Positions 27,733 to 29,659 of a stretch of 64,000 nucleotides of DNA are shown piece by piece. Position 1 is the stretch's first letter, and the number at the start of each line of letters is the position of its first letter. Where the stretch lies: assembly GCA_015058155.1 (NCBI GenBank), contig SVCW01000004.1, positions 1 to 64,000 of the forward strand, in the 5' to 3' direction. The notes beneath the pieces were generated by a model that was given only the letters and a program-made list of their open reading frames with translations, did not search any database and was not told the DNA's origin. The position numbers and the translations under genes are program-made. The stretch comes from Clostridiales bacterium. GTDB taxonomy: Bacteria > Bacillota > Clostridia > Peptostreptococcales > Anaerovoracaceae.

Positions 27733-27847
27733 ACTTGTCTGTTCGCATTTCATTTGTTATGGATTCCAGGGCGCTAATTTTCTGTTCGCATTTCATTTTC
27801 TATGGATTCCAGGGCGCTAATTTTCTGTTCGTATTACATTCTCTATG
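27719..27847. repeat. Three tandem copies of a 43-bp unit
   Basis: The period is exactly 43 bp (GGGC at 27726, 27769, 27812). The copy nearest the nuclease encodes that gene's last codons and stop (minus strand IENVIRTEN-stop); the next copy repeats them as IENEMRTEN-stop outside the gene, and the third is more diverged and runs into the degenerate palindrome. The unit length is not a multiple of three. Confidence 0.85.
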
Positions 27848-28755
27848 AACTTCAGAATATTATTTATCGCTTTTCCGTCCAGTTCGTTTTCGCCGTCTTC
27901 ATATGTAGCAAAGAATTTCTGGTTCGGATAGTAGCCGGCATCGAGATATTTCATCATCTTTCCTCTTGCATTATCTTCATACTCTCTTATGCCCATAAGC
28001 CCAAAATGTTCCCATATCAACGTACTGCCATCCGGCATCAGGATAGTGAAATCAGGATAAAAAGCTATTCCGCCCACCCATGTTTTGAGTTCATATTTAA
28101 AAGGAATTCCCGCTTGTGTCAAAGCAAATGCAATTAAGAGTTCGGATTTTGATCTTACATAGAATCCTAGCCCCGTATCGATACGGCGGGTACTATTCGA
28201 TATTTCCTTTCCTTGATGCCCTCCTTCTTCAAACCATCTGACTACCATGTCCATATCGTATCCGGCTCGCACAAAAATTTCTTCTATATTTCCACTTTCA
28301 CAGCGTCTCACGTTTATGACAGTTCCAGACATCGCTCTCCTTTTATAGTCATCATTGGGAAGTCCCGATACGAGATTTATAAGTGTTTTGACTTTGTCTG
28401 GCATTCGGTACTTCGCACACGTATTTTCAATAATTGAGTCTGCAGTAATTTCATTGTACTTCTGTGCCTTCTTCAATATTCTTTTGTTCTTTGTTGCCCA
28501 TTCATTTAACGTTGTTAGCACCTGTTTATACACTAAATCATCAATGAGTTTCTGTGTTTTGTCTTCTTTGCTTCCGAGCGAAACATATTTCCACTTATCA
28601 TTTTCCTTATAAACATGATATGGTATGTACTTGTTTCCGCGTTTTTTAAATGAAACAATTCCTTTCTGGAATTTTCCGCTGTCCTTTGCGTATATTTCCT
28701 CAATCTTATTGCAAAGTTCTTCGATACTCTTGAGTTTTTCTCTATTCCCTTTCAT
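27817..28755 (-). CDS. PD-(D/E)XK-like nuclease associated with palindromic repeats
   Basis: 312-residue protein without a recognised name. The N-terminal 130 residues are charged and helical (KFQKGIVSFKKRGNKYIPYH, then KLIDDLVYKQVLTTLNEWA), possibly DNA- or RNA-binding. The C-terminal part resembles a Vsr/DUF559-type restriction-endonuclease fold: RSKSELLIAFALTQAGI (helix with Glu), FYPDFTI (Asp), LIWEHFG (Glu) and a Lys in ARGKMMKYLDAGY. The catalytic residues are inferred by pattern. The ATG at 28755 has GGAGGA 6 bases upstream. It is flanked by palindromic repeats on both sides and lies between unrelated housekeeping genes. Confidence 0.6.
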   Translation of the reverse strand: MKGNREKLKSIEELCNKIEEIYAKDSGKFQKGIVSFKKRGNKYIPYHVYKENDKWKYVSLGSKEDKTQKLIDDLVYKQVLTTLNEWATKNKRILKKAQKYNEITADSIIENTCAKYRMPDKVKTLINLVSGLPNDDYKRRAMSGTVINVRRCESGNIEEIFVRAGYDMDMVVRWFEEGGHQGKEISNSTRRIDTGLGFYVRSKSELLIAFALTQAGIPFKYELKTWVGGIAFYPDFTILMPDGSTLIWEHFGLMGIREYEDNARGKMMKYLDAGYYPNQKFFATYEDGENELDGKAINNILKFIENVIRTEN

Positions 28756-28852
28756 TTCTCGTCCTCCTTTTCCATATTTTACCATATAGAAAGTTTTTAT
28801 TGAAGACCTTTTCGAGCTTCATACCATGCTTTCTTGCCACCAACCGCGAAAG

Positions 28853-29574
28853 TGTGCCCATATCGCAAGTTTTGTGATTCTCGGACACATTTTCCCTCTG
28901 CAGCACCGGCATCTGTAGCCTTTCTCAAGCCCCAGAACAGAATCTTGTGCCTATATTTCGAGTTTTGCGATTCTCAGGCACATTGTCCCTCGTTCATACG
29001 CTGCCATACGGTATCATCACGATCCCTTTCTTCGCTTAAGGTTACAACGTGTGCCCATATCGCAAGTTTTGTGATTCTCGGGCACATTTTTGCTCTGCAA
29101 CATCGGCATCCTTAGCCTTTCTCAATCTCCAGAACAGAATCTTGTGCCTATATTTCGAATTTCGTGATTCTCAGGCACACTTTCGCTCGTCCATACGCTG
29201 CCATACGGTATCATCACAATCCCTTTCTTCCCTTCATGCTGCAAATTGTGCCTATATCGCAAGTATTTCGATTCTCGGGCACATTTTCCCTCGTTCATAC
29301 GCTGCCATACGGTATCATCACGATCCCTTTCTTCGCTTAAGGTTACAACGTGTGCCCATATCGCAAGTTTTGCGATTCTCGGGCACATTTTCCCTCATCC
29401 ATACGCTGCCATACGGTATCATCACAATCCCTTTGGCTACAACGTGTGCCTATATTTAGAATTTCGTGATTCTCAGGCACATTTCCGCTCTGCAACATCG
29501 GCATCCGTAGCCTTTCTCAATCTCCAGAACAGAATCTTGTGCCTATATTTCAAGTTTTGCGATTCTCAGGCACA
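28853..29574. repeat. Array of eight 37-bp palindromes with two recurring spacer types
   Basis: Units lie at 28853-28889, 28946-28982, 29050-29086, 29143-29179, 29247-29283, 29351-29387, 29445-29481 and 29538-29574, each exactly 37 bp. Outer stem TGTGCCC/GGGCACA or TGTGCCT/AGGCACA; inner stem ATCGCAA/TTGCGAT, best in units 1, 3 and 6. Seventh stem pair changes in step (C-G in some, T-A in others), with one T-G and one internal mismatch (unit 1). Spacers are of two types: about 56 bp (GGCATC...CAGAACAGAATC) after units 1, 3 and 7, and about 67 bp (CATACGCTGCCATACGGTA...) after units 2, 4 and 5, with a 57-bp variant after unit 6. Plus-strand open frames across the array are repeats read through, not genes. 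Confidence 0.92.
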
Positions 29575-29621: not shown

Positions 29622-29659
29622 AAAAAAAGTGCTGATGCTTTATCGCGCATCAGCACTTT
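29622..29659 (-). terminator. Terminator of nhaC
   Basis: AAGTGCTGATGC and GCATCAGCACTT form a 12-bp stem with a seven-T tail on the minus strand. Confidence 0.9.

Follow-up and report, generated by a model that had tools for sequence, protein, structure and literature searches.

The locus described here probably belongs to a two-part system that pairs a PD-(D/E)XK-type nuclease with private arrays of double-stranded recognition sites, which the nuclease spreads or maintains, a reading to which a probability of roughly 0.6 is given. It lies in a stretch of 64,000 nucleotides from a Clostridiales bacterium (contig SVCW01000004.1, positions 1 to 64,000; hereafter the window) and comprises a gene and, 5' to it, eight inverted repeats of exactly 37 bp each.

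27817 to 28785, minus strand: nuclease gene, 322 aa, with an N-terminal helix/three strands/helix module and a C-terminal PD-(D/E)XK-like domain
28853 to 29574, no strand: gene-linked array, 5' of the nuclease gene, with centre spacings of about 93-94 and 104 bp
28853 to 28889, plus strand: unit 1, TGTGCCC...GGACACA
28946 to 28982, plus strand: unit 2, TGTGCCT...AGGCACA
29050 to 29086, plus strand: unit 3, TGTGCCC...GGGCACA
29143 to 29179, plus strand: unit 4, TGTGCCT...AGGCACA
29247 to 29283, plus strand: unit 5, TGTGCCT...GGGCACA
29351 to 29387, plus strand: unit 6, TGTGCCC...GGGCACA, the sole unit with a complete inner stem
29445 to 29481, plus strand: unit 7, TGTGCCT...AGGCACA
29538 to 29574, plus strand: unit 8, TGTGCCT...AGGCACA

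The eight palindromes reported in a preliminary description of this DNA are real, in that their pattern (up to three mismatches allowed) matches eight times in the window and never in 100 shuffles. Start spacings are 93, 104, 93, 104, 104, 94 and 93 bp, which corresponds to some 9 and 10 turns of the helix, and part of the array consists of duplications of about 197 bp, with two unit types alternating. The neighbours of the nuclease gene, a sugar kinase-like gene and an antiporter-like gene, are ordinary genes, and with its inter-unit segments duplicated the array does not resemble a CRISPR. The antiporter-like neighbour, of uncertain worth as a marker, has no match at E 1e-50 in three genus relatives; directly 3' of it stands a perfect 13-bp hairpin (29626-29659) which is probably its terminator.

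The 322-aa protein has no Pfam match, and its family has no matching model in Pfam or NCBIfam. Domain structures were predicted on two relatives, L027 and L070, and the window protein was assigned via these. The predicted L027 C-terminal domain aligns with Tn7 TnsA (Z 7.9, 3.3 Å, 113 aligned) and with Bax1, of the DUF790 family (Z 7.4, 3.0 Å, 96 aligned), and the domain also resembles PADLOC PDC-S68. An E, a D and a further E (E179, D209 and E223 in L027 numbering) are invariant in 105 family sequences, and so both the core fold, as predicted, and the acidic active-site residues of the PD-(D/E)XK superfamily are found in this family. In contrast to TnsA, Bax1 and PDC-S68, the family proteins are without a helicase or transposase partner domain and have instead a private N-terminal module and cognate arrays. 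That module, predicted with high confidence in L070 as a helix, three strands and a helix, may well be the recognition part. By fold it matches mainly prefoldin-like and coiled-coil structures, with Z around 8, in a range typical of common arrangements; an AP2-like integrase arm domain, considered as the N-terminal fold, draws no support from these matches.

The family is multicopy and patchily distributed. About nine diverged relatives are present in the window genome (1.70 Mb, 60 contigs), where paralogues are 21-28% identical to the window protein, and in the same GTDB family members occur in 56 of 119 genomes, with up to 17 in a single genome; in one genome of the same genus, 98% complete, no member was found. 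A contig scan with a single family protein found relatives in Fibrobacter, Treponema and other Spirochaetes, Firmicutes and one Coriobacteriia, and the 155 family loci analysed come from these groups. Phage and plasmid records match the C-terminal domain only. At one locus (L023:3470-3900) the family gene adjoins a putative tmRNA gene, judged as such by sequence.

That the nuclease and its palindromes belong together had been proposed from the window alone, and the link recurs at unrelated loci in several phyla. The intergenic region 5' of the 155 family genes has a median of 511 bp vs 211, and its repeat content is 16%, against 6% in other intergenic DNA and 1.6% after shuffling. At least three exact-arm units are found upstream (within 1.2 kb) at 37 of the 155 loci and downstream at nine, and under the same setting in none of 98 far-upstream regions and none of 155 shuffles. 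When one arm mismatch is allowed the number of loci with at least three units rises to 94, the controls covering the exact-arm setting only; the arrays are 5' only at 56 of these, on both sides at 25 and 3' only at 13. Many nuclease homologues have flanking palindromes, the absence of which would have spoken against the link by the preliminary description's own test, with arms that differ and tend to be specific to each locus. No clear array is apparent at about 40% of loci, among them five of the nine paralogues in the window genome. Near the 5' side of two paralogues for which no clear inverted-repeat array is seen lie tandem repeats, of 33 bp and 35 bp (L026:1916-2047 and L029:597-806).

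Units within arrays are helically phased. All 325 unit spacings together give a best period of 10.55 bp (R=0.79), and a set of 138 spacings from 82 loci, made up of unique spacings per locus with near-identical loci dropped as a guard against counting tandem duplications, gives one of 10.50 bp (R=0.75, p~1e-34). The phasing is seen in Fibrobacter (R 0.88), in Spirochaetes (0.89) and in the other groups (0.71). Being spaced by whole turns, the units lie on the same face of the double helix.

The arms and the N-terminus of the nuclease appear to change as a pair. At the same site in two Fibrobacter genomes (L062 and L063) the flanks and the nuclease domain are roughly 90-100% identical, and the array together with the first ~57 residues differs as a single block; L062 and L064 match along the whole length, and the block-exchange pattern is repeated at the protein level in L081 and L088. 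Such co-exchange is partly expected, because array and N-terminus are neighbours. Across Fibrobacter the similarity of N-terminal motifs follows that of the arms once C-terminal similarity is taken into account (partial r=0.62; 0 of 2000 permutations), and outside Fibrobacter it does so weakly (partial r=0.05; 51 of 2000). Two rules, both post hoc in that they were seen before testing and with related loci counted, connect an NH pair in strand 1 with a TTACA arm (10 of 10 loci vs 0 of 26) and a T[KNQ]G turn with a TATAA arm (13 of 13 vs 0 of 23). The NH/TTACA loci cross phyla, from Fibrobacter to Treponema (L102) and the family of the window organism (L203). In L236, L237 and L238 a unit with mixed arms occurs (GGGGCATATAA / TTATAGG), as if specificity were changing in place.

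Cognate units are also dispersed through genomes that carry the nuclease. The exact ACCTATAA unit has 11-52 copies in six genomes with the cognate nuclease, and among eight other Fibrobacter genomes it is absent from six and present three and six times in the remaining two. Likewise each of two cognate genomes has six copies of the GGCATATA unit, of which seven other genomes have one at most, and G043 has 65 copies of the CCAACATT unit, which is absent from seven other genomes. Only two of 20 array regions sampled from five ACCTATAA genomes have a family gene, and the remainder lie between unrelated genes, often convergent. As to the window unit, for which the preliminary description asked whether copies occur elsewhere, the exact pattern is seen in arrays in the window genome only, with 0-2 isolated matches in the other 118 genomes of the family searched, and one orphan TGTGCC array of four units lies on another contig (G000:C29). 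There, at G000:C29:23250-23900 (L290:2650-3300), it adjoins a second orphan array with another specificity, the units being TGTGCC...GGCACA at ~92 bp in the first and GGTCTT...AAGACC at ~72 bp in the second; no cognate of the GGTCTT array was found.

Among related genomes, the site 3' of serC has an array in G121, none in G128, G120, G126 and G127, and units with different arms in G124. Relic ACCTATAA arrays are present in G127 and G133, and no matching N-terminus is seen among the nuclease members found in these two genomes. An arm mismatch occurs in four of the 10 recognisable G133 units vs three of 45 in G121 (p=0.016, on small numbers; p=0.006 after removal of one ascertaining unit per array). 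These comparisons support the view that cognate arrays are absent or eroding where the matching nuclease is missing. Orphan arrays have arms and spacing in common, but their interiors have little sequence in common, which is not what newly transposed copies would show, and so the copying would have to be old or inexact, or selection on the arms would have taken its place. The Fibrobacter arrays share a core motif, approximately TGCAAACAAATTAA, which beats shuffled motifs (mean mismatches 2.75 vs 4.3); in the orphan arrays L223-L242 it is central, asymmetric and frequently placed 39 bp from the centre of a unit.

Overall the association, the helical phasing, the co-exchange, the recognition code, the dispersal and the erosion where the cognate nuclease is missing are each supported by comparison of sequences, from which we infer DNA binding, cleavage and mobility for the system. 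In the mechanism proposed, the N-terminal module with its three-stranded sheet between helices would read an arm of roughly 7-11 bp, two subunits would bind one ~37-bp inverted-repeat unit as a dimer, and bound units set at whole turns along one DNA face would assemble into a cooperative complex. One array would stand beside the gene and others between unrelated genes, where they would last for as long as the genome keeps the cognate nuclease. The nuclease most likely acts on the arrays and in this way spreads or maintains them, as is thought for RAYTs and REPs, and its cleavage of them may contribute. Weighing against this reading are the loci at which no clear array is apparent, the dissimilar interiors of the orphan arrays, the weak tracking of arms by motifs outside Fibrobacter and the near-identical G043 copies discussed below. 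A wider claim, held more tentatively and at somewhat less than even odds, is that these are selfish or domesticated elements found across phyla, each a PD-(D/E)XK nuclease with an exchangeable N-terminal reader that both maintains and spreads its own helically phased, double-stranded arrays and follows a readable residue-to-base code.

The features that suggest cooperative binding would also suit a regulatory or architectural role, in which a former nuclease binds its sites cooperatively so as to silence its own promoter or organise the chromosome, the dispersed arrays being functional rather than mobile. Helical phasing and conserved arms with free interiors are compatible with a DNA-binding complex, and most gene-linked arrays are 5' of the gene. 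However, the invariant catalytic-type residues suggest that nuclease function is retained, 13 loci have arrays on the 3' side only, and the orphan arrays are often between convergent genes, away from promoters, and are missing at the same site in related genomes. A regulatory or architectural role is rather unlikely, though the likeliest of the alternatives.

A defence or decoy system is improbable. Here the nuclease would attack foreign DNA that contains its inverted repeat, host arrays would hold or restrain the protein, and the rapid exchange of specificity would reflect an arms race. The C-terminal domain is shared with the C-terminus of the PADLOC candidate defence proteins PDC-S68 and also ends plasmid-borne helicases or ATPases, and many diverged copies per genome with a patchy distribution are in keeping with such a role. 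Yet no modification enzyme or immunity gene was seen beside the window gene, a viral scan with one family protein found no relative, and, with its sites in intergenic arrays of the host, a nuclease under no restraint would cut the host chromosome.

The ends of the transposons Tn7 and Mu hold several phased sites for one protein, and arrays on both sides at a quarter of the array-bearing loci (25, mirrored in L179 and L190) recall this arrangement. Near-identical array copies at different sites in G043 might also suggest that the arrays derive from a conventional transposon or homing element, as its ends or its relics. But the G043 copies lie within composite elements that bear their own, unrelated terminal repeats, and so cannot be credited to this nuclease, as another enzyme may have copied them. 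In contrast to Tn7 and Mu, the arrays here are also found far from the gene, their units are palindromic and no boundary is common to all copies. The same Fibrobacter site retains its gene across species with specificity alone exchanged, the paralogues are as highly diverged as given above, and no target duplication was found. As to homing endonucleases, several intact units adjoin the window nuclease gene. A conventional mobile element seems a poor account of the arrays, with little probability left to it.

The preliminary description placed its emphasis on hairpins, with an outer and an inner stem, and took the alternation of C-G and T-A at the seventh outer pair to mean that folding, and not only sequence, is preserved. 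The outer stem holds, 98% of its cells being paired; one pair is broken in unit 28853 (GGACACA), and unit 29247 has one U-G pair. Not so the inner stem, ATCGCAA/TTGCGAT, which is complete in unit 29351 only, with pair 13-23 broken in four of the eight units and pair 14-22 in two of eight. Covariation in the window array amounts to two pairs in the two unit types, and with these types alternating via the ~197-bp duplications the C-G/T-A alternation is possible without selection on folding. The covariation score is modestly above shuffles (10 of 500 as high), and neither the count of covarying pairs (equalled or surpassed in 202 of 500 shuffles) nor that of extra pair types (328 of 500) exceeds them, so that preservation of folding is not established. 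The 10.5-bp phasing and the sequence-specific code argue instead for double-stranded recognition, and point to units that serve as double-stranded sites on one helix face, not as RNA or single-strand hairpins. Recognition of array transcripts or folded strands by their stem structure, to which inverted repeats with a well paired outer stem would lend themselves, is very improbable indeed, given centre spacings in multiples of a B-DNA turn, unconserved interior pairing, arm identity rather than pairing alone tracking the protein, and no Rfam match to the array at gathering score (one weak sub-threshold match falls outside it).

The closest known parallel to the paired nuclease and arrays is the REP/RAYT system. 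The RAYTs, which are HUH tyrosine enzymes, process REP hairpins as single strands (PMC8266576), and their genes are flanked by their own REPs, with which they have co-evolved, the cognate palindromes being dispersed in intergenic DNA (PMC2817692, PMC8266576). Recognition in REP/RAYT systems is of single-stranded hairpins with a GTAG-type tag, and the sequences here argue for double-stranded sites. The preliminary description had likened the arrays to REP palindromes, noting that no RAYT or Y1-type gene is present, and this likeness in layout is supported; homing or an action on hairpins, which it also suggested, is conjectural. As in these 'REPtrons' (TnpA-REP with REP palindromes), the nuclease gene lies beside its own palindromes (5', 3' or both, at 94 of 155 loci), cognate palindromes are dispersed between genes (with one orphan array only in the window genome), and nuclease and palindrome vary together. 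In contrast to them the enzyme is PD-(D/E)XK-like rather than an HUH tyrosine (Y1) transposase, and its units are helically phased, mostly in arrays of about four, with interior pairing unconserved. No description of such a system is found in Pfam, NCBIfam, PHROGs, PADLOC, Rfam, the PDB or an open-access library, which by itself is not proof of novelty; the pairing of a nuclease with phased palindromes in several bacterial phyla is apparently undescribed.

If the reading of a nuclease with private phased arrays is true, the REP/RAYT arrangement would have been reached a second time by unrelated means, and several phyla would harbour nucleases and target sites that are paired by nature. The matched arms and N-termini would make a large data set from which to learn how a small module recognises DNA in a sequence-specific manner, and the system would make testable the question of why dispersed palindromes persist in bacterial genomes.
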